20,349 bases of DNA from an uncultured Bacilli bacterium (GTDB taxonomy: Bacteria > Bacillota_I > Bacilli_A > RF39 > UBA660), in NCBI GenBank assembly GCA_949746915.1, contig CATKEA010000114.1:1-20349 (forward strand), read 5' to 3'. Below the pieces are notes generated by a model, which was not told the origin of the DNA, searched no databases, and worked only from the letters and a program-made list of their open reading frames with translations. Below, piece after piece: positions 10,023 through 20,349 of this stretch. A program made the position numbers and the translations under genes. Position 1 is the stretch's first letter, and each line of letters opens with the position of its first letter.

Positions 10023-10922
10023 TTAACTTTTTGTAAATTTTTTAACTTTATTATCCATATAGAAAATTTGATCTTCTATTCTGTTTAGGTTAAAATTAAC
10101 CCAATTGTTCCAACTTTCATTGTCAGGATTAATGGCAATATCTGCTATTTTATTACGATATTGTTCACGATAATCAAAGTAAGCATCACTAGTATAAAAA
10201 GCTGGTGTTGGAAAATAATATCCTAAATTTCTTTCTGTTAGTTCGTATGTTTTCAAAGCTTGTAATGTGCGAGCAAATCTTGTGTTACCATCATTAAAAA
10301 CTTGTAATGCTCCAACTAAGCCATGAATTATTGTTGGTTTAATCAATGTATAATTATCATGAATGGTGCTATTATAATATACAGTTAAATTCATTATTGA
10401 TTCTTCTATATCTTCACAAGGCAAACTAAAATAATGAATTTGTAAATCGCCTCTTCCACTTTTGCATACATAAGCTAAATTATCTTGACGATAATCATTT
10501 TTAATATATTTCTGACTTGATGTTCCATCTAATAATTTTTTATGAGACACTATTATTTTTTCTCTAGTTAAAGTATCTAATGGATATTTTTGATTTTTTA
10601 ATAGATAGTCAATAGCATATTGTCTTTTACCTTCCATATATAGTGTTAGCATATAAGGATCTTCTTGTTCTAAACTATGATTTTTTTGAATTTCAATTTT
10701 CTTTATAGCATGTAAGTATTGTTCTTTTTTCGTTTTTGATAAATTATTAATATCATCTAAATATTTTGTATACTTTTCTAAAACATCTTGTTCATGTTCT
10801 AAAGTCCAATCTGATAACTCAAGGTATGCAATAGCATCAAATATATTTAAGTTTACAACAGGATACTGTCCGCTACTACGCATTTCTTCTGCTCTTTGTA
10901 TTTCAGTTTGTAAATTATCCAT
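10023..10922 (-). CDS. Fic/DOC-family protein with catalytic His replaced by Gln
   Basis: A 299-residue Fic-fold protein. The Fic core motif, normally HPFxDGNGRxxR, is QVFNDGNTRFAR at 207-218. The anion-binding DGN, Arg215 and the final Arg are kept, but the catalytic histidine is Gln207 (codon CAA at 10302-10304), Pro is Val and the second Gly is Thr. Upstream, TLYMEG at 93-98 fits the (S/T)xxxE(G/N) inhibitory motif of class II Fic enzymes, with Glu97 in place to block the ATP gamma-phosphate. The flap-like segment and the helix carrying NYTLIKPTIIHGLVGAL precede the core. Most Fic proteins AMPylate target side chains using the missing His, so this one is either inactive for that reaction or does a different job. 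It has its own promoter and no toxin or antitoxin partner gene beside it. Confidence 0.85.
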   Translation of the reverse strand: MDNLQTEIQRAEEMRSSGQYPVVNLNIFDAIAYLELSDWTLEHEQDVLEKYTKYLDDINNLSKTKKEQYLHAIKKIEIQKNHSLEQEDPYMLTLYMEGKRQYAIDYLLKNQKYPLDTLTREKIIVSHKKLLDGTSSQKYIKNDYRQDNLAYVCKSGRGDLQIHYFSLPCEDIEESIMNLTVYYNSTIHDNYTLIKPTIIHGLVGALQVFNDGNTRFARTLQALKTYELTERNLGYYFPTPAFYTSDAYFDYREQYRNKIADIAINPDNESWNNWVNFNLNRIEDQIFYMDNKVKKFTKS

Positions 10923-11056: not shown

Positions 11057-13153
11057 TTAACGCAATTCTGGATAACCATTAGCTGATATTGTATCTAAAT
11101 TCCAGATACTTTCATCAAAATGCATTCTATCTTTATAAAATGCTTTACTATGAATATCACTATTTGTAGCATTATTTAATTTTCCATTAGAACTGTCTGT
11201 TACTCTAGATAATCCTGTTGCGTCATTGTATTCAAAGCAATTATTTAGTTTAGTATTAACATTAGATGGTTCGGCTCCTGTAAATTTATATGGCATGAAT
11301 CCTGTTGTACCACTCATGTTTCCAATTGCAATAGAGTTTTTTATCATTGTTTCATCATATATATTTCCTACAATTCCTCCATTGTAGTAATTTCTAGATG
11401 CTCCATTATAAGTATTACTGTTTTTTATGATGCTTACATTAGAAATAACATTTTCAATTACAACTGATTGTTGACTCGCTCCTACTATTCCACCATTTTC
11501 AGTGGTAGTAACATCAAGTTGTCCTTGTACATAAACATTTTTAATTGAACCACCAAATTTTCTACCTATAAATGTTGAAACATAAACTCCTGATCCTTTG
11601 ACATTAGCATTTTTAACAGAAATTCTATCAAAAGTAGAAGTAGCAGTTTCTTTTCCATCTTGTCCAGCTATTACTCCAATATTATTAACTCCATTTAATG
11701 TAATATTCTCAAATTTTATATTTCTTAAAGTTGCTCCATTTGTTTGACTAGCAAATGCGGCAACAAAATTTTCTGATTCCCTATTATTAGTGAAATTTAT
11801 GATTTTTAAATTTTGAATGTTACCTTTAAAGTTTGCAAATAATGATTGGTTATTAAGATTTTTAATTGTATGATTATTACCTTCTATTGTTCCAGTAAAT
11901 GTTGACATGATAACACTTGTATTAGTATTACTGTATCCATTAAAGTCAATATCTGCAGTTAAAATATAATCATCATCTGGACTATTATTTAAATTTAAGA
12001 AATCTCTTAAGCTAGCTATTTCTCTTTTTGCCATAGCATTAGTTATATTATTTGGATCACTATTTTTTAATTTTGGTAATCCTCCACCATTGACATTAAC
12101 AAAATTCCAAATATTAGCATTAAATCTTAGATTATTTGTATAAAAATTACTATTTACAGTTGAGCGATTGATTGCAGTTATTCTATTAGTAAATGAAATT
12201 CCACTTTTTTCACTACTTGCTGTTCCGACAGCTTCTATTAACTCATAGTTATTATTAAAATTTCCTTCAACTACTTCTTTAGTAGCATTTCCGTATAATT
12301 TATATCCATTATTTACTTTACCTAATGAAATATTATTACTTATATTGGATACTGTTCTACCATTAGATGCATTAACAATTGCACCAAATAGTCCACCTGT
12401 TGAAGCTAGATTTCTTCCTCTTACACTAGCATTACTGAATGTATTATTTATTATTGATGAAGAAATATATCCAGCAATTCCTCCAACATTACTATTTCCA
12501 TTAACACTACCTAATGAATAACTATTTTTAATTGTTGAGTTTTGGAAGTATCCTACTAATCCACCAGCATTGTTTCCGCTATTAACAACTGAACCATTGA
12601 AACTACTTTTATCAATTTTATATATGTAATTAGCATTTCCAATTATACCTCCAATATTTCCATTTCCAGTTATTGTACTGTTAACTCCATGAACATTTTC
12701 AAGTGAAGAATATGTTGCTACTCCAAATAAACCACCTATTGTTCCACTATTAATTGAAGAACTTACATTTACTTCATATTTAACATTAGATACTGTTGTT
12801 CTATTTATTGTTCCAGCTAAACCACCTATTGTTACAGTTCCTGTTACATTAACATTTTTTAAATTAACATTTTCAATTATACTAAAGTCTATAGTTCTAG
12901 ATAGAGAACCTGCATTATTAGTAAAACAAGTAACATCAACATTTTCAATTGTTAAATTTTTAACATATGTGAATACCAATTTATTAAATAATGCTCTTTT
13001 TAGTCCTGTTATTTTATGATTATTTCCATCTAATGTACCAACAAAAGTATTTAACATACTATCATCAGAAATTTTTACAGGAATATTTGAAAAATCTAAG
13101 TCATTATCAAGAATAATATTTACTTCTGGATTATTTTTTACTTTAGCAATCAA
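11057..13153 (-). CDS. C-terminal GLUG solenoid part of the M26 protease, severed by a frameshift
   Basis: A 698-codon open frame that has no credible start of its own: the first start-like codon is TTG at 13153, and no ribosome binding site is visible. The frame stays open upstream to 13273 and there reads as the natural continuation of the protease (YREALYGYLK, then RVTDDFRSSIYDE). It holds two GLUG-type beta-solenoids. The first (to about residue 365) opens with FVGTLDGNNHKITGL; the second (about 379-698) opens with FTGTIEGNNHTIKNL. Both carry repeated GGLxG/GGIxG turns, and each ends in an aromatic cap (ANIWNFV...GLPKL and ESIWNLD...GYPEL). The protein ends right after the last cap, with no LPXTG or membrane anchor. 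GLUG repeats are typical of Zmp/IgA protease N-terminal regions and adhesins. If the frameshift is real, this part is probably not made. Confidence 0.85.
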   Translation of the reverse strand: MIAKVKNNPEVNIILDNDLDFSNIPVKISDDSMLNTFVGTLDGNNHKITGLKRALFNKLVFTYVKNLTIENVDVTCFTNNAGSLSRTIDFSIIENVNLKNVNVTGTVTIGGLAGTINRTTVSNVKYEVNVSSSINSGTIGGLFGVATYSSLENVHGVNSTITGNGNIGGIIGNANYIYKIDKSSFNGSVVNSGNNAGGLVGYFQNSTIKNSYSLGSVNGNSNVGGIAGYISSSIINNTFSNASVRGRNLASTGGLFGAIVNASNGRTVSNISNNISLGKVNNGYKLYGNATKEVVEGNFNNNYELIEAVGTASSEKSGISFTNRITAINRSTVNSNFYTNNLRFNANIWNFVNVNGGGLPKLKNSDPNNITNAMAKREIASLRDFLNLNNSPDDDYILTADIDFNGYSNTNTSVIMSTFTGTIEGNNHTIKNLNNQSLFANFKGNIQNLKIINFTNNRESENFVAAFASQTNGATLRNIKFENITLNGVNNIGVIAGQDGKETATSTFDRISVKNANVKGSGVYVSTFIGRKFGGSIKNVYVQGQLDVTTTENGGIVGASQQSVVIENVISNVSIIKNSNTYNGASRNYYNGGIVGNIYDETMIKNSIAIGNMSGTTGFMPYKFTGAEPSNVNTKLNNCFEYNDATGLSRVTDSSNGKLNNATNSDIHSKAFYKDRMHFDESIWNLDTISANGYPELR

Positions 13154-13230
13154 ATCTTCTGCGCTAGTTACGTGTACTACATTTGGTGTTTCATCATATA
13201 TTGAAGATCTAAAATCATCTGTAACACGTT

Positions 13231-13273
13231 TTAAATATCCATATAAAGCTTCTCTATAATATAAGTTGAAGCA
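13231..13273 (-). other. Frameshift joining the two parts of the M26 protease
   Basis: In the frame of the long N-terminal part, translation reads NASTYII and stops after nine more codons at TAA (13231-13233). In the frame of the C-terminal part, codons from 13258 downward read YREALYGYLK and stay open to 11057, while a TAA at 13274-13276 blocks that frame further upstream. The crossover must therefore lie between 13273 and 13231, most likely at the AT-repeat around 13255-13263. The net shift equals one lost base or two gained bases (for instance a duplicated AT). Confidence 0.85.
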
Positions 13274-16200
13274 TTACTATTAAGATCTATTGGTTTATTA
13301 TATGCTACATCAAGTTGCATAGCCTCTAAGGTTGTATTAATAGCCTTTTGAACATCTATTTTTGTAAATGTTTTTATTTTATCTTCAACTTTCTTATAGC
13401 GATTAAGCTGATATGATTTCCATGTAATATTTTCATCATTAGCTATTATTTTTAAGATTTCTGCATCACTTTTACCATTATATTGTCCACTTGCATAAGC
13501 AACATAACCATTATAACCAAAATCTGCTAGTAATTGATAAGCATTTAATACGAAGAATGCCTTATTAGCTGCTCCAGTACTTGCTGTATTTTCAACTATA
13601 TACCAGAAACTTCCTGTTGTATAGGCTTTATTTCCTCTTACTATTACTAAATGGTTATCCCATATATCCTCAATTGTTTTTAAGTTCATTTTTCTAAAAT
13701 CTTCTGCTGTTTTCCATGAGTATGCTTGATTATCAATTACTTGGGCAATTTTACATTGCTCTTCTGGTGTTAATCGTAAGAAAGCCATAGCTTCAATATA
13801 GTCTAAGAAAGCAAATGTATCATACATACCCTTGTAGTATGATTCGATATTAGCTAGTGTATTTATTCTCTCTTTTGTTAAATTAGTTGTCATAGTGCTA
13901 TCTATAGGTCTTGTATAAGTATAATTTGGTACAACTCCATATACACTATTGATGGCATTTGGATAAGGTTGTGTTAAGAAGTTATCTGTAAAGTGTTCTG
14001 CACCAGCACCACTTCTTCTTCCTCGTCCGTCTAAGAATATTTTTCCATCTTGATTATGAATTCCTTCATGTGAGAATACAACGAAATCACTTAAGGCATG
14101 ATGAGCTACCCAATTCATATCAGTTCCATTAGCAAATGCTGCTGATCCTGCTGGTTTAGTAATCCAATGTCCCATTGCTTCATAGAAGTATTTAAAAGCA
14201 GGTGCGGCATTTGGATCATTTGACCAATCTTTACCTATGGTACTATCATAACTTATCTGGCTCATATTAGATACGTTTTTAAATCCATTTCCAGGTAATT
14301 CTTCAACTACACCAGCAATAGTATCGTAGAATGGTACTGCTAGTGAAGCAAAGTTCTTTAAGGCTCTAAGTTTTGTTTCATAGTCTACTGAATCAATATT
14401 ACTGAAATATAGACGTAAGTTTCCAACTAAGATAGTTGTTGGTATTCCTAATACATATAAATCATCTTCTGGATATGACAATATGTATAGAATAATATGT
14501 TGTCTATTCTTTAAATGATCCCATACCCTATAACGAATATTAGAATAACGTGGAGCACCTTCTTCATAGATTACCCCTTGGTAGTTATCTATTATCCAAC
14601 TTGCAGAATCTTTTTTGTATTTTTCATTAGTTAAGTTTGTAATGAAGTAATCAAAGAAACTATAAATATCCTTACCAGTAAGAGTTCTAATATAATTATT
14701 ATAGTAATTATATGCTTGAGTAGTTTCTCTTTTAGTTTCTGGTAATAGTAAGTTTTTTGTCATACTTGTTACATTTAACTTATCACTAAATACTTTACCA
14801 TCAAAGAATATAATATCACGCATATTTATACCACCAATTTCAATATTATAGAAACGGTCAAAGTAATTATATGCATATATTAGTTTTTCTAGAGTATTAT
14901 TTGCTTTTAAGTCTTGAATTAATTTTTTTTCTAAAATTGGACTATTACTTGTTAAATTGAATTCCTTAGTATTTGCTAATAAATTCATAGCTATGTTTTC
15001 AGCATTTGTTTTAACTCTAGCAAAATTGTCTATATAATTTCTTCCTTCTGTTTCATCTGTTAAAACAGCTAAATCATTGACATAATCATAGGTACTAATT
15101 TTATTAACAATATATTCATATACTTTAGAATTTTTGTTTACTATGTATTTATTAAAATTATAATTGATTCCTAACTCTTCAATATTATAAGTTATAATCT
15201 GTTTGTCATCTTCTTTGTATGTTACATTGTATGTAATTGTTTCATCATCTGTAAATAATAATCTTATTGTTTTAATACGATTTTGGTCATTTTGATTTAA
15301 TGATAAAACTAATTTACCAGCTGCATCATAAGCAAAGATTTCTTTTATAATTTTTGTATTTAATAAATGATTAACTTCTAGTTTATTACCATCTACTAAA
15401 TAGAATTTTGCATCATAGAAAGGCATTAATTTATGCATATTATGATATGCTATTTCTCTATTTACATCATAATTATTTAATCCCTTTATTCTTTTATATT
15501 CTGGAATATAAACATTTTGATTGCTAGGTTTTTCAATAATATTTTCTGAATAGTTTGGGTCTTTCTCTTTAAGTGTTGGATATTGTCCACTTGCCACTTT
15601 ACTAAAATCCCAGATTTCTTCGCTCCAACCTAAGTTTTCAGTGTAAAAACTTTTTTTCTTTAAATCTTCTGGTGAAACTGTTGATATAGCATTATGACTA
15701 GCTTGGGTTTTCATATTTGAGGTTTCAAGCTCATAGTTATTTGATGAAGCGTTATTAATACCACTTCCAACAACTCGATAACCATTTCCGTCATTTGTAT
15801 TAGTTGCTAAACTTAATGTATTTTTTAAAATAATATTTTTTGAGTAACCTGATATACCTGCTAATGTTCCATTTCCAAATGTAACTATTACATTAGCATA
15901 AACATTTTCTACAACAACTCCTGATGGTGATTCACCAATAAATCCTCCAGAACCATCACTGCTAGAACTTACTTTACCTTGAACATAACTATTTCTTATT
16001 GTAGAGTTATATATTCTTCCGATAAATCCACCTGTTCTTTTCTGATTTCCTACTACAACATTAGTTGCAGAACATTTTTCAATCAAGCTATTTTGATCAA
16101 CGTAACCAACTAAGCTTCCTGTTCCATTGGCATTTGGACCTATTACAGTTGAGTTTTTTATATGAACATTAGTTAATGTAGTACTAGACATAGTTGAAGC

Positions 16201-19200
16201 AAGAACACCATTTCCATTTACTTTAGCATCGCTTAAAATTAAATTTTCTATTGTAGCTCCATTTAAGGTATAGAATAATGGTTTTGTTAGACCCTTAATA
16301 GTATGACCATTACCATTTAATTTTCCTTTAAATATTACTGATGAATCAATTAAAGAGTTACCACCATATCCACTTGCATCATAGTCTTTGTCTAAATTAA
16401 ATTCACCACTTGGGTTAGCTATAATTGCTTTTATAATATCATCTAAACTTCTATTAGAAGCGACATTGTTTTCTAATGTTCCATAAACAACTTCTAATTT
16501 ATGTTGTTTTTTATTACCAACATATTGAACTATGTTATTGTATGCAAGAACAAATTTTATTTGGTTATTTTCAATTTTATATTCATCAATTGTAGTATAG
16601 AATGATGGGATATTTTTCATATCAACTCTTACTAAGTATTTACTTAAGTCAGTTAAATCAGATTCTTTTACACTTAATACTTCATTTACTCCTGTACTTG
16701 TTTCTTTGTATAAAGTAATATTTTCAATATCTTTCATTTCATATTGACGCATACCTACATTTATAGTTTCGTTTAAAATAATTGCATTACTATATTCATT
16801 TTTTTGATTTGCATGATCATTGTCTAAATCGTAATTTACTATTATTTGAACATAATACTCTTCACTACCATTTTTTATGAATTTTACAGTATTTTTACCA
16901 TTATTAATAGTAGTTTCTTTTACGATTTTATTTGATTCATCTTTAATAATTATTTTATTACTTGTTATAGTATTTTCGTTATCTATTAATTCGAATATAA
17001 CATTTACTGTATTATCGTCATTTTCTTGATAACTAAATTTGTTAACTGTTGGATTGTCTTTTAATATTTCTATTTGAATAGACTTATTTTCAAGTTCTAA
17101 TTCTTTCCCATTACTTAAAATAATCTTTTCAATACTTATATTTTTTACACCACTTTGGTCATATGAAGGAATTTCTGTATAATAACTACCATTTTCTTCA
17201 CCTAAATCATAGTTGTTACCATTTATTATAACTTCAGTTGGAGTAAACATGCTAATGTTAGTACTATTAAATGAGACTTTTATATTTTCATTTTTAGTAA
17301 AATATATTGTTTCTGTATTCTTTGAATTATATGTCTTTAAGTTTGTAAGTTGTAGTTGATAGTTTTTTATAAGTTGGATTGGTTTAGTTAATAATACACT
17401 GTCTTTAACTACAACAGTCTTTTTAGTATCACGGTCATATGAAACTAATATCTCTAACGTGTATCTAACATTTTCTATGACATTAATATCTATTTTGTTA
17501 GTACCAACAGATAAATTGTTTATTTCTTTTACAAGTTCACTTGTTTCACTATTTATTAGTCTTATTTTGGCACTAGCAAAAGCTTGTTCTTTGTCATTTA
17601 TATCAAAAGATAATGTTACAGATTTTTCAGTATAATTATCTTTTACTTTATAATTTGAAATAGTAGGTGCATCTTTTAATACTTCTACCACTGCTTTATG
17701 ATTTAATTTAATTTCTTTATTTCCTTCTTGAACATAAATTCTAGTAAGATTTAACTCATAATTTCCTGCTTCAGCTGGGGATGTTAGTTCAATTTGATAT
17801 GTATTATCTGCTGTCTTTTTAACATTAAATTCTTCATTATTAACTCTAATTTTTGTAACATCACTTACTTGATTAGTATCTATAACATAACTAATATTAA
17901 ATTTTGTGTTTTTTTCTATAACAGATGGCTTATTAACATTTTTAATAGATGCTTTAGGAATTGCTTCTACTGTTTTTTCATATAGTAAACCATTACCAAT
18001 AATTGTAGTTTCATCTAATTCATATGATGCAAAGACTTTAATTTTATATCTTATATCAACAGGAACGTTAAATATGCTTTCAATACTTGTTGTTTGGCTT
18101 AATTCATTAAAAGGAAATGATTTTTCATCAATTAATTCATCATTACTTTTATAAACAGCTATTTTAATATTGCTTAAACTATGATGGATATCTTTAAAAT
18201 ATGCTTTTACGTTCATTGTTCCTTTTTCAGAATCTTCTGTCACTTCAACATTTGAAATAGATGGTTTTTCTTTTAATATTGAAACTTGAATTGTATTATT
18301 TTTATCTATAGTTAGTTCTTTACCATTAGATAAAACTATACTTTCTATTTTTAAAGTTTTCTTTCCTACATCAGTAATTTTTGGATAAATTACATAATAT
18401 TTTCCATTTTCTTTTGTTATATTATAGTATTTTCCATTAATTTTCGCTTGTTCTGGTGTATAAATACTAGCATTAGTGCTAGAAAAACCTATTTTTATGT
18501 CATCAATTATTTCAAATTTAAAACTTTCTACATCGCCTTTGTATGTATTAATATCAGATACTTTTATTTCATAATCTTTAATTAATTGAAATTTTTTACT
18601 AAAATTAACAACCCCTGTATTATCTGTTGCATCATCAATCATACCAGAACTTAAATCATAATATAAATAAATTCTAGCTATATATTGTTTTTTCTCTTCT
18701 ACATTTACAACTATTTTATTAGTACCAACAACTAGTTCTTTACCATAAATTGTTTCTTCTTTATCGTCTACAATTTCTATTACAGCATTAGTTAAACTTT
18801 TGTCTAAATCTTTAACATCAAAAGATATATTGAAAGTTGAGCTATCTATGTTTTCATCAGCACGATAGTTTTCAATAATTGGTGAATCTTTTAAGACATC
18901 AACTTTAATTATATGATTTGCATTTATAATTTTGTTATTATTTAAAATAACTTTATTAATTTTATATTCTTTAACTCCTGAAACGTTTTCAGTTGGTACT
19001 TCTACTTCATATTCATTAGGTAAATTTGTTTTCTTAACTATATATTCTTGATTATTAATTAATACTTTGTCAACACTTGCTCCATATGATACTTCAGCAA
19101 TGAATTTTAAAGTAACTGTACTATTTTTCTTTGGATAATAATTTTGTTGTTCTGAAGTTGATAAATGTACTGTATAATCTAATGTATTTTCAATTTTTTG

Positions 19201-20217
19201 AATTAGTAGTGACAAGTCCATAACAGTAAGTTTTCCATCACTACTTATATCAGCATTATTATGTTTATCTTTTGGAAGATATTTTAAATTAATTAAATGT
19301 AATTCTAATAGGTTCGCATCTAGGTAATTAACTTGACCATCACCATTTAACTCACCTTTATTATTGAAATCATATGAAAAAGCACTTACTGTTTCAAAAA
19401 ATACAAGTGATAACAATGAAATGATAATAAATGTATAGTAAGAGTCTTTGTCACTGAATTTTTTATTTTGTTTTAAAATTATATAAATTATCAAAATAAT
19501 TATAAGTAGAATAAGTAAAATCTTAAATAAGAAAAAAGTTCTTTTTTTATCATAACGATTATGATTTTTGTCATTCCATTTATCTTCTTCTTCAGTTCCT
19601 ATATTAGTGTTATCATTATTTTCACTATCATTATCATCTACTATTGGATCGTTTGGGGTTGTATTATTATCAATATTAGTATTATTATCTTGATTAGTAT
19701 TTCCAACATTATTATTATTGTTATTAACACTGTTAACTTTTATAACATCTAATTTTATGGTTTTAGCTTTAATATTCATATCAGCTGTTCCGTTGGAAGT
19801 CACCATATCTTTGACTTTTATGGTAGTTACTCCAGCTTTAATGTTATTTTTTACTTTTAATGTTACTTTAACAACATCTTCTTCTGTAGTTGTACCAGCT
19901 CTTTTTATAGCAATAAACTCTTTAGTTACTGGATTATATTGTAGTTGTTCCCAATTATTAAGACACACAAAATCTGAGGCATTTACACGTTCAAAAATTT
20001 TTTCATCATATTCTAATGTTGCCTTATAGGCATTTATACCTCTTTTAATCCCAGTAAATTTATCTAATTTTAAGAATATAGTAATTTTATCATTTTTTCT
20101 TATCTCTGTTTTATCTGCTCTAAAACTAGCATCTATTCCAGTAAAAGCCAAAACATTACTGCTAGGCACAATAAAAAGAGTTAAAACTAGTACTAATTTA
20201 ACCATAAACTTTTTCAT
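13231..20217 (-). CDS. M26-family zinc metalloprotease (IgA1 protease/Zmp-like) with cohesin, membrane hairpin and dockerin; truncated by frameshift
   Basis: A 2,328-residue secreted protease. A signal peptide (1-24, ending VLA) precedes a cohesin-like beta-sandwich (about 27-160), an Asn/Asp-rich linker (162-220), two membrane helices (227-248 and 261-279) around a basic loop, and a dockerin (283-348) with two calcium loops. Four tandem repeats of about 205 residues (350-1165) follow, then the M26 N-terminal region with a GLUG solenoid (about 1165-1553, containing FKGKLNGNGHTIKGL) and the catalytic domain (about 1570 to the end). Zinc ligands are His2050 and His2054 of HEGIH plus Glu2074, with catalytic base Glu2051; the 20-residue step to the Glu ligand and the NQDGKIFLDGRGRR tail fit M26. 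No LPXTG is visible. The family cleaves host proteins such as IgA1, but this substrate is unknown. The frame breaks just past the catalytic domain. Confidence 0.92.
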   Translation of the reverse strand: MKKFMVKLVLVLTLFIVPSSNVLAFTGIDASFRADKTEIRKNDKITIFLKLDKFTGIKRGINAYKATLEYDEKIFERVNASDFVCLNNWEQLQYNPVTKEFIAIKRAGTTTEEDVVKVTLKVKNNIKAGVTTIKVKDMVTSNGTADMNIKAKTIKLDVIKVNSVNNNNNNVGNTNQDNNTNIDNNTTPNDPIVDDNDSENNDNTNIGTEEEDKWNDKNHNRYDKKRTFFLFKILLILLIIILIIYIILKQNKKFSDKDSYYTFIIISLLSLVFFETVSAFSYDFNNKGELNGDGQVNYLDANLLELHLINLKYLPKDKHNNADISSDGKLTVMDLSLLIQKIENTLDYTVHLSTSEQQNYYPKKNSTVTLKFIAEVSYGASVDKVLINNQEYIVKKTNLPNEYEVEVPTENVSGVKEYKINKVILNNNKIINANHIIKVDVLKDSPIIENYRADENIDSSTFNISFDVKDLDKSLTNAVIEIVDDKEETIYGKELVVGTNKIVVNVEEKKQYIARIYLYYDLSSGMIDDATDNTGVVNFSKKFQLIKDYEIKVSDINTYKGDVESFKFEIIDDIKIGFSSTNASIYTPEQAKINGKYYNITKENGKYYVIYPKITDVGKKTLKIESIVLSNGKELTIDKNNTIQVSILKEKPSISNVEVTEDSEKGTMNVKAYFKDIHHSLSNIKIAVYKSNDELIDEKSFPFNELSQTTSIESIFNVPVDIRYKIKVFASYELDETTIIGNGLLYEKTVEAIPKASIKNVNKPSVIEKNTKFNISYVIDTNQVSDVTKIRVNNEEFNVKKTADNTYQIELTSPAEAGNYELNLTRIYVQEGNKEIKLNHKAVVEVLKDAPTISNYKVKDNYTEKSVTLSFDINDKEQAFASAKIRLINSETSELVKEINNLSVGTNKIDINVIENVRYTLEILVSYDRDTKKTVVVKDSVLLTKPIQLIKNYQLQLTNLKTYNSKNTETIYFTKNENIKVSFNSTNISMFTPTEVIINGNNYDLGEENGSYYTEIPSYDQSGVKNISIEKIILSNGKELELENKSIQIEILKDNPTVNKFSYQENDDNTVNVIFELIDNENTITSNKIIIKDESNKIVKETTINNGKNTVKFIKNGSEEYYVQIIVNYDLDNDHANQKNEYSNAIILNETINVGMRQYEMKDIENITLYKETSTGVNEVLSVKESDLTDLSKYLVRVDMKNIPSFYTTIDEYKIENNQIKFVLAYNNIVQYVGNKKQHKLEVVYGTLENNVASNRSLDDIIKAIIANPSGEFNLDKDYDASGYGGNSLIDSSVIFKGKLNGNGHTIKGLTKPLFYTLNGATIENLILSDAKVNGNGVLASTMSSTTLTNVHIKNSTVIGPNANGTGSLVGYVDQNSLIEKCSATNVVVGNQKRTGGFIGRIYNSTIRNSYVQGKVSSSSDGSGGFIGESPSGVVVENVYANVIVTFGNGTLAGISGYSKNIILKNTLSLATNTNDGNGYRVVGSGINNASSNNYELETSNMKTQASHNAISTVSPEDLKKKSFYTENLGWSEEIWDFSKVASGQYPTLKEKDPNYSENIIEKPSNQNVYIPEYKRIKGLNNYDVNREIAYHNMHKLMPFYDAKFYLVDGNKLEVNHLLNTKIIKEIFAYDAAGKLVLSLNQNDQNRIKTIRLLFTDDETITYNVTYKEDDKQIITYNIEELGINYNFNKYIVNKNSKVYEYIVNKISTYDYVNDLAVLTDETEGRNYIDNFARVKTNAENIAMNLLANTKEFNLTSNSPILEKKLIQDLKANNTLEKLIYAYNYFDRFYNIEIGGINMRDIIFFDGKVFSDKLNVTSMTKNLLLPETKRETTQAYNYYNNYIRTLTGKDIYSFFDYFITNLTNEKYKKDSASWIIDNYQGVIYEEGAPRYSNIRYRVWDHLKNRQHIILYILSYPEDDLYVLGIPTTILVGNLRLYFSNIDSVDYETKLRALKNFASLAVPFYDTIAGVVEELPGNGFKNVSNMSQISYDSTIGKDWSNDPNAAPAFKYFYEAMGHWITKPAGSAAFANGTDMNWVAHHALSDFVVFSHEGIHNQDGKIFLDGRGRRSGAGAEHFTDNFLTQPYPNAINSVYGVVPNYTYTRPIDSTMTTNLTKERINTLANIESYYKGMYDTFAFLDYIEAMAFLRLTPEEQCKIAQVIDNQAYSWKTAEDFRKMNLKTIEDIWDNHLVIVRGNKAYTTGSFWYIVENTASTGAANKAFFVLNAYQLLADFGYNGYVAYASGQYNGKSDAEILKIIANDENITWKSYQLNRYKKVEDKIKTFTKIDVQKAINTTLEAMQLDVAYNKPIDLNSNASTYIIEKLYMDI
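13996..14070 (-). other. M26 zinc-binding active site
   Basis: HEGIH is encoded at 14056-14070 and the third ligand Glu2074 at 13996-13998. The segment between carries DGKIFLDGRGRR, the family signature for peptidases of the IgA1 protease/ZmpB group. All ligands and the catalytic Glu are intact. Confidence 0.9.
16723..19170 (-). repeat. Four diverged tandem protein repeats of about 205 residues
   Basis: Each unit has two beta-sandwich-like halves joined by a conserved [VI]LK[DE]xP linker at residues 441, 647, 846 and 1051, spaced 206, 199 and 205 residues apart. The first half carries V/AxINxxxY and a [VI]xLxxG/NK[EK] strand pair; the second half ends in a YDL/YDR-type strand. The units are strongly diverged at DNA level, so this is an old duplication forming a stalk rather than a recent expansion. 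Confidence 0.7.
19170..19369 (-). other. Dockerin type I module within the M26 protease
   Basis: Residues 283-348 contain two F-hand calcium loops: ELNGDGQVNYLD (289-300) and DISSDGKLTVMD (323-334). Each is followed by a Leu-rich helix (LLELHLI; LSLLIQKI). The first loop has Glu instead of Asp at position 1; the other ligand positions (N291, D293, N297, D300; D323, S325, D327, T331, D334) fit. The module lies directly after the second membrane helix. Confidence 0.8.
19737..20139 (-). other. Cohesin-like module at the N-terminus of the M26 protease
   Basis: Residues 27-160 follow the cohesin pattern: SFRADKTEIRKNDKITIFLKL, then an NAYKATLEYDEKIFE segment, a WEQLQYNP strand, VVKVTLKVK, and a final TIKVKDMVTSNGT plus IKLDVI strand. 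Such domains bind dockerins in other proteins. The assignment is from pattern only; related surface beta-sandwiches exist. Confidence 0.65.
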
Positions 20218-20246
20218 CTTTGAAGCACCCCAAAACTTTGCTTACG

Positions 20247-20275
20247 ATTATAACATATTTTTTATATTTAGTCAA
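20247..20275 (-). promoter_or_regulatory. Sigma-A type promoter of the M26 protease gene
   Basis: On the minus strand TTGACT (20270-20275) and TATAAT (20247-20252) are 17 bases apart, and TGT precedes the -10 as an extended element. Transcription would start near 20240, giving a leader of about 22 bases with a GGGGTG ribosome binding site. No operator-like repeat is visible nearby. Confidence 0.8.
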
Positions 20276-20291
20276 TTGAAATTTATTTAAT

Positions 20292-20338
20292 AAAAAACAT
20301 CTGTAATATGGAAATACTAAAATTTCCATGGAGATGTT
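20292..20338 (-). terminator. Terminator of a gene upstream, beyond the right edge
   Basis: A two-part hairpin on the minus strand: outer stem AACATCT/AGATGTT (20296-20302 with 20332-20338), inner stem ATGGAAAT/ATTTCCAT (20308-20315 with 20322-20329), then a T-run (complement of 20292-20297). It should end a minus-strand gene lying past the window, so the protease gene is transcribed from its own promoter. Confidence 0.75.
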
Positions 20339-20349
20339 CTTTGTCATAA

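Follow-up and report, generated by a model that had tools for sequence, protein, structure and literature searches.

The window analyzed here is a stretch of 20,349 nucleotides, contig CATKEA010000114.1 of assembly GCA_949746915.1, from an uncultured Bacilli bacterium. Its minus strand carries a frame from 20217 to 13231 that translates into 2,328 amino acids and contains, in order, a signal peptide, a cohesin, an Asn/Asp-rich linker, two membrane helices, a dockerin, Ig-like repeats, and an M26 peptidase. The order from the signal peptide to the dockerin, with a basic loop between the helices, had been read from the letters in an earlier note and was confirmed by translation, Pfam matches, and hydrophobicity. 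The features, with the evidence for each, were as follows.

13231..20217, minus strand: whole frame, cassette plus M26 peptidase, 2,328 amino acids (translation)
20247..20275, minus strand: promoter-like TTGACT-17-TATAAT site ahead of the start codon, its second hexamer preceded by TG (consensus scan only, which returned 3 sites in 19900 to 20349 versus 2.9 expected in shuffles)
20143..20217, minus strand: first signal peptide, residues 1 to 25 (translation, hydrophobicity)
19744..20139, minus strand: cohesin domain, residues 27 to 158 (PF00963; beta-rich model with high pLDDT)
19552..19740, minus strand: Asn/Asp-rich linker without LPXTG, residues 160 to 222 (sequence, low model pLDDT, relatives)
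19468..19545, minus strand: membrane helix 1, residues 225 to 250 (hydrophobicity, model helix at 223 to 250)
19438..19467, minus strand: basic interhelix loop, residues 251 to 260, putatively intracellular (sequence)
19381..19437, minus strand: membrane helix 2, the proposed internal signal peptide ending in VSA/F, residues 261 to 279 (homology to split-form signal peptides, motif)
19183..19359, minus strand: dockerin, residues 287 to 345, with two calcium-loop motifs at 289 to 300 and 323 to 334 (PF00404; high-pLDDT model)
13426..15198, minus strand: M26 catalytic region (PF07580; similarity to 7jgj)
11057..13153, minus strand: C-terminal GLUG/M26_N-like part in another frame (PF05342, 65.5 bits; joined to the protease without a break in relative P0002)

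The peptidase part matched PF07580 with 78.5 bits (cutoff, 22), contained the HExxH motif of M26 catalytic regions as HEGIH, and resembled a pneumococcal IgA1 protease of known structure (7jgj; E = 2e-37). No G5 domain was matched in the window protein in a Pfam scan with E values up to 1. The gene is interrupted near 13231 (13120 to 13300), a feature that the earlier note did not mention, with the C-terminal part resuming in the other frame listed above. The closest relatives among the matches listed (P0002 to P0005) are uninterrupted and about 3,039 to 3,051 amino acids long, and the break may be natural or an assembly error. A gene for a Fic-domain protein (10023 to 10922; 26.7 bits, cutoff 24) adjoins the interrupted protease gene.

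Both cassette domains named in the earlier note exceeded their Pfam cutoffs. Residues 25 to 165, scanned alone, matched PF00963 with 35.0 bits (cutoff, 24.1), and the cohesin scored 34.1 bits in a six-frame search of the genome; it had no Pfam match when the whole 2,328-amino-acid protein was scanned. The domain was modeled as beta rich, with pLDDT values of 94 to 98 per block of 10 from residues 31 to 160. Compared alone to solved structures, the cohesin gave no match with E values up to 10, and the family profile gave one cohesin chain, 3ul4_A, a cellulosome-anchoring protein (E = 0.068). Residues 290 to 342 matched PF00404 as a type I dockerin (33.2 bits; cutoff, 22.9), and the first of the two calcium-loop motifs begins with Glu. 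Hydrophobic helices were placed at 225 to 252 and 261 to 281 by script and at 223 to 250 and 258 to 286 in the model. Helix 2 ends in FETVSA/FSYDF, i.e., V277-S278-A279. The pattern LP.[TS][GNASE] had no match anywhere in the window protein, in agreement with the earlier note, and the streptococcal-type LPXTG before helix 1 is accordingly absent from it.

With residues 1 to 560 as the query, at least 55 related proteins were retrieved from the 7998 scored candidates that shared the most words. In some of these relatives, helix 1 is immediately preceded by LPQTG or LPKTG, and at least 10 (P0034, P0042, P0045, P0046, and P0048 to P0053) begin with a signal peptide followed by a dockerin. Within the window's own taxonomic order, matches to some part of residues 1 to 560, not always to the whole cassette, were obtained in 104 of 385 genomes. 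The same cassette also precedes proteins with PF16116/PF16173 (P0039, P0054, and P0063 to P0065) and a protein with PF13860 (P0057), and it is therefore a cassette rather than a feature of M26 peptidases only.

Gene arrangement was examined in 78 loci from named genomes, fetched with a 12-protein alignment (half of them fused forms) led by P0042. The scan used two patterns, both of them dockerin peptides, and loci were confirmed against P0042, a protein that starts with the dockerin and has no cohesin; linkage to a cohesin was therefore not built into the search. Homemade cohesin and dockerin profiles were run on all frames of the loci; the former misses the cohesin of P0030/P0031, which is plainly visible in the sequence. 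Three loci without a dockerin frame above 60 bits (L062, L071, and L114) were left out before counting; L062 is a frame-broken fused gene, though it was entered as "adaptor" in the dockerin tree. The remaining 75 loci contained 77 main genes, five of which were too close to the end of a contig to be read (L057, L066, L069, L081, and L117), so that 72 were readable. The counts are of genes rather than of independent events and include many near-identical relatives (e.g., L049/L110/L111); the 84 sets reduce to 70 nonredundant ones.

A search for the same layout in homologues, proposed in the earlier note, showed it to be conserved. Of the 72 readable genes, 46 were fused like that of the window (including L073, which has a frame break and both helices), and 24 were split into a cohesin gene and a gene for a protease beginning with a signal peptide and dockerin. 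Cultured strains that have the fused form include Mediterraneibacter catenae SW178 (L103) and Lachnoclostridium sp. An76 (L108). A cohesin was thus linked to the dockerin protease in 70 of 72 genes; the other two (L064 and L104) start with the dockerin and have no cohesin upstream. In the split loci, the cohesin gene lay upstream on the same strand and was directly adjacent in 23 of 24 cases, at distances of 5 to 272 bases, with another small cohesin gene intervening in L040. These two-gene pairs suggest that a window-type gene makes both a surface anchor and an enzyme that clips onto it.

The split cohesin genes encode proteins of about 305 to 321 amino acids with a signal peptide, a cohesin of the same family as that of the fused forms, and, in most, a recognizable but different C-terminal dockerin. 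When five of them were scanned with Pfam, the dockerin exceeded the cutoff in all five and the cohesin in four (the fifth scored 22.0 against 24.1). With the homemade profile, split cohesins scored 186 to 206 bits, and among the 45 intact fused ones, 30 scored at least 160 and 15 scored 98 to 156. A tree of 88 cohesins placed the fused and split forms together, apart from nine others, with a support of 89/89, on few columns and with some long branches; fused and split labels required 4 and 3 changes, as opposed to 26 and 20 when shuffled. Some loci also encode small cohesins that bear a C-terminal helix, with LPKTG or LPQTG in L049, L060 (a fused locus), L077, and L087 and with LPKAG in L040 and L105. 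Three of four that were scanned passed the cohesin cutoff, and that of L040 did not (13.3 bits). Together with the split cohesin genes, these candidate wall-anchor cohesins suggest a two-tier arrangement, in which the enzyme would sit on an adaptor and the adaptor on a wall anchor. Downstream of three split loci (L049, 20796 to 22745; L077, 9512 to 14202; and L087, 20855 to 25511), proteins with an internal cohesin and a C-terminal dockerin were observed together with small LPXTG-bearing cohesins, an array that resembles a small scaffold system.

Residues 1 to 356 were modeled with AlphaFold2 on 44 sequences, with a pTM of 0.69. The pLDDT was 94 to 98 in the cohesin and dockerin (95 to 98 per block for the dockerin, residues 291 to 340) and mostly below 50 in the linker. 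By our own estimates, a pTM of 0.40 to 0.46 would be expected if only the cohesin were well placed and, roughly, 0.50 to 0.60 if the pair were docked; the estimate is itself rough, since the docked value lies below the one observed. The pTM, from one prediction judged by its summary scores, points to a docked cohesin-dockerin pair. Coevolution of the two domains, approached through distance matrices, was uninformative as evidence of pairing, with a partial correlation between cohesin and dockerin given the Ig-like repeats of 0.31, no stronger than that between cohesin and Ig-like repeats given the dockerin (0.41).

Sortase cuts LPXTG between T and G and retains the part before the cut. An LPXTG near the N terminus should therefore lose the enzyme behind it, and because only the leader part would be kept, how LPXTG-bearing M26 proteases stay on the cell is a real question. 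Among the 46 fused genes, a canonical LPXTG stood right before helix 1 in 18, a degenerate form in 5, and none in 23. In those 18 relatives, LPXTG forms the end of the linker and occurs together with the same cohesin and dockerin, and the stretch from LPXTG through helix 1 to the basic loop resembles an ordinary sorting signal placed in midprotein. Sortase genes were present in all 48 genomes searched (14 from the window's own family plus 34 identified via 35 of the 78 named loci; at least three genomes were counted twice), including four matches in the window's own genome; being universal, they were uninformative for discriminating LPXTG-bearing from LPXTG-less forms. The proposal in the earlier note that the cohesin-dockerin pair replaces sortase anchoring was not supported, because 18 of the 46 fused genes combine this pair with an LPXTG next to helix 1. 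The window's lineage has the same type of anchor but no LPXTG. In such relatives, the pair and sortase would act together, and the form in the window would be a membrane-held version.

Helix 2 has its homologue in the signal peptide with which the split-form proteases begin. In L064/P0050, the signal peptide ends nearly as helix 2 does in LPXTG-bearing fused forms, and the gene resembles a fused one in which helix 2 has turned into an N-terminal signal peptide. A signal-peptidase-like motif (small residues at positions -3 and -1 behind the hydrophobic core) followed helix 2 in 46 of 46 fused and 24 of 24 split genes and in 17 of 17 genes of the window's own genome and family (without L021, which is cut at its start); in the window protein, V277-S-A279 constitutes the predicted cleavage site. 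At helix 1, used as a control with equal 14-residue tails, the motif occurred in 18 of 46 fused genes and 4 of 17 genes of the own genome and family. Shuffled helix 2 tails still averaged 40.1 of 46, 17.7 of 24, and 12.0 of 17, respectively, and the motif is therefore permissive and mostly reflects residue composition. The homology of helix 2 to genuine signal peptides carries more weight than the motif counts, most of which composition gives, and is the main support for the putative signal-peptidase site seen in the earlier note.

The window's own genome (86.8% complete) contains only two clear cohesins by profile, both within cassette proteins. The second cassette protein, on contig C154 (L009, 117 to 3587), has 1,156 amino acids and the same order of parts; its helix 2 ends in VYA/Q, a long Asn/Ser repeat loop separates the two helices, and its cohesin (30.1 bits) and dockerin passed the cutoffs of the genome search. 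In a scan of the whole protein, it had no Pfam match and no peptidase. A search for further dockerin proteins, also suggested in the earlier note, returned this paralogue and two dockerin peptidases, of types M60 and M6, whose dockerins look different; against the cassette-dockerin profile, the window protein scored 104 bits, the paralogue 43, and the M6 protein about 22, and the M60 protein gave no match. The M60 peptidase gene (L008, 175 to 6038) is followed by a gene for 275 amino acids with a signal peptide, an acidic linker, and a membrane helix, the front domain of which is not recognizable as a cohesin. The M6-type peptidase (L007, 779 to 4940) has a C-terminal dockerin, and the protein encoded ahead of it is membrane anchored and has a cadherin-like domain. 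As candidate cohesins, these two neighboring membrane proteins were set aside after profile comparison, which gave 17% and 32% probability over short stretches.

Residues 1 to 345 would serve as an anchoring cassette that makes the gene effectively two secreted proteins in one frame. The first would be a surface anchor made up of the signal peptide, cohesin, flexible linker, helix 1, and basic inner loop, which in the many relatives with LPXTG before helix 1 would include a complete sortase sorting signal. The second would be a client enzyme consisting of a second signal peptide (helix 2), the dockerin, the Ig-like repeats, and the M26 peptidase. The chain would cross the membrane as a hairpin, with the cohesin and the enzyme both outside, and signal peptidase would cut after helix 2 (V277-S-A279/F280). 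After the cut, the hairpin would hold the cohesin, which sortase would move to the wall in LPXTG-bearing relatives; the freed enzyme would start with the dockerin, and the cohesin would recapture it, probably in a calcium-dependent manner. We infer the topology, the cleavage, the binding, its calcium dependence, and the role of the dockerin as the cohesin's main partner, and we regard a scaffold-client polyprotein, cut after helix 2 with the dockerin enzyme recaptured by its own cohesin, as probable. The interpretation in the earlier note agrees with the domains, their linkage, the homology of helix 2, and the predicted docked pair and fails in replacing sortase; corrected to a mechanism that goes with sortase, it is the best-supported one.

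Alternatively, helix 2 may never be cut, and the pair may close across the hairpin to stiffen or orient a protease held in the membrane by its own helices. Such a chain would require no recapture, and the motif counts in the main group largely reflect composition. The same bacterial family also includes a divergent subfamily (L027 to L039) in which the cohesin, both helices, and dockerin-like loops are kept, with basic residues right after helix 2, the first loop following almost at once, and a variable insert parting the loops. There, 5 of 12 genes have the motif against a shuffled mean of 4.0, leaving the subfamily without a clear cleavage site (12 of its 13 loci were counted; L035, with a dockerin closer to the main group, was omitted), and its pair may be an uncleaved clasp. 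For the window protein, an uncut hairpin appears unlikely: in the split forms, the homologous segment serves a secreted protease as its N-terminal signal peptide, and related IgA1 proteases are reported in PMC9637739 to be cut downstream of LPXTG.

The partners may also be different ones, with the cohesin mainly binding the dockerins of other molecules and the protease dockerin binding other cohesins, as in a node of a cellulosome-like mesh. The split cohesin genes with their own C-terminal dockerin and the loci with small LPXTG-anchored cohesins fit such a network, as do the second cassette protein and the two further dockerin peptidases of the own genome. The restriction of clear cohesins in that genome to the two cassette proteins, together with the low or absent scores of the M6 and M60 dockerins compared to those of the window protein and its paralogue, makes it improbable. 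The window protein has one cohesin, not the several cohesins or enzymes per scaffold of a cellulosome-like scaffoldin. Least credible of all is that the cohesin-like domain is a mere spacer or stalk and its linkage ordinary domain accretion. Cohesin-like modules without demonstrated dockerin binding are known, but the pair is kept together, fused or split, in nearly all of the 72 readable genes, and the prediction seems to place both domains confidently relative to each other. The scaffold-client reading remains the preferred one.

The window protein shares its M26 catalytic region with Gram-positive M26 metallo-IgA1 proteases (pneumococcal IgA1P/Zmp and Gemella IgA1P); the full-length Gemella structure 7uvk matched only over window residues 898 to 1960, the M26 part. 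These enzymes are described as sharing an N-terminal LPXTG (PMC9637739 and the review PMC7939560) and as being cut 56 residues downstream of it (PMC9637739, citing Bender and Weiser 2006), a distance comparable to the about 60 residues from LPQTG to the proposed cut in the LPXTG-bearing relative P0027. They differ from the window protein, which has neither an LPXTG nor a G5 match and has a cohesin and dockerin around its helices. Another source states that the mature IgA1 protease is linked covalently by sortase A (PMC7695701), which is at odds with a simple cleavage like the one proposed here.

Among cellulosome-type systems, work on the Limousia mucinolysome (PMC12997984) describes dockerin peptidases and an LPXTG scaffoldin with a cohesin, cSca5. 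As proposed for the cassette, a surface cohesin would there hold dockerin proteins, including peptidases, and scaffoldins of this kind have both a cohesin and a dockerin; the anchor and the enzyme are described as separate proteins, whereas in the window they share one frame with an internal signal-peptide-like helix. The peptidase scaffoldins ScaO and ScaP of Pseudobacteroides cellulosolvens resemble the window protein in combining a predicted peptidase module, one cohesin, and one dockerin in a single protein, but the available portion of that source (PMC5590126) mentions neither a membrane hairpin nor a cut separating the pair. No description of the cohesin/hairpin/dockerin layout was found in the literature searched (titles and abstract openings, with few subscription papers).

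The arrangement is real, widespread, and unusual. It is somewhat likely, on balance, that one frame yields a surface receptor and a docking enzyme in equal amounts, parted at an internal signal peptide, that the cassette is reused before several enzymes, sometimes as two genes, and that it illustrates how a wall-bound enzyme can be retained through an N-terminal LPXTG. The cassette shows what such an LPXTG could hold: with the cohesin before the motif and the dockerin at the start of the enzyme, it would give a concrete answer to the question of how LPXTG-bearing M26 proteases are attached, and this answer would cover a large set of bacteria labeled Clostridia, Bacilli, and Lachnospiraceae. 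If true, the cassette would represent a natural display device of compact build as well as an unusual polyprotein for a bacterium.
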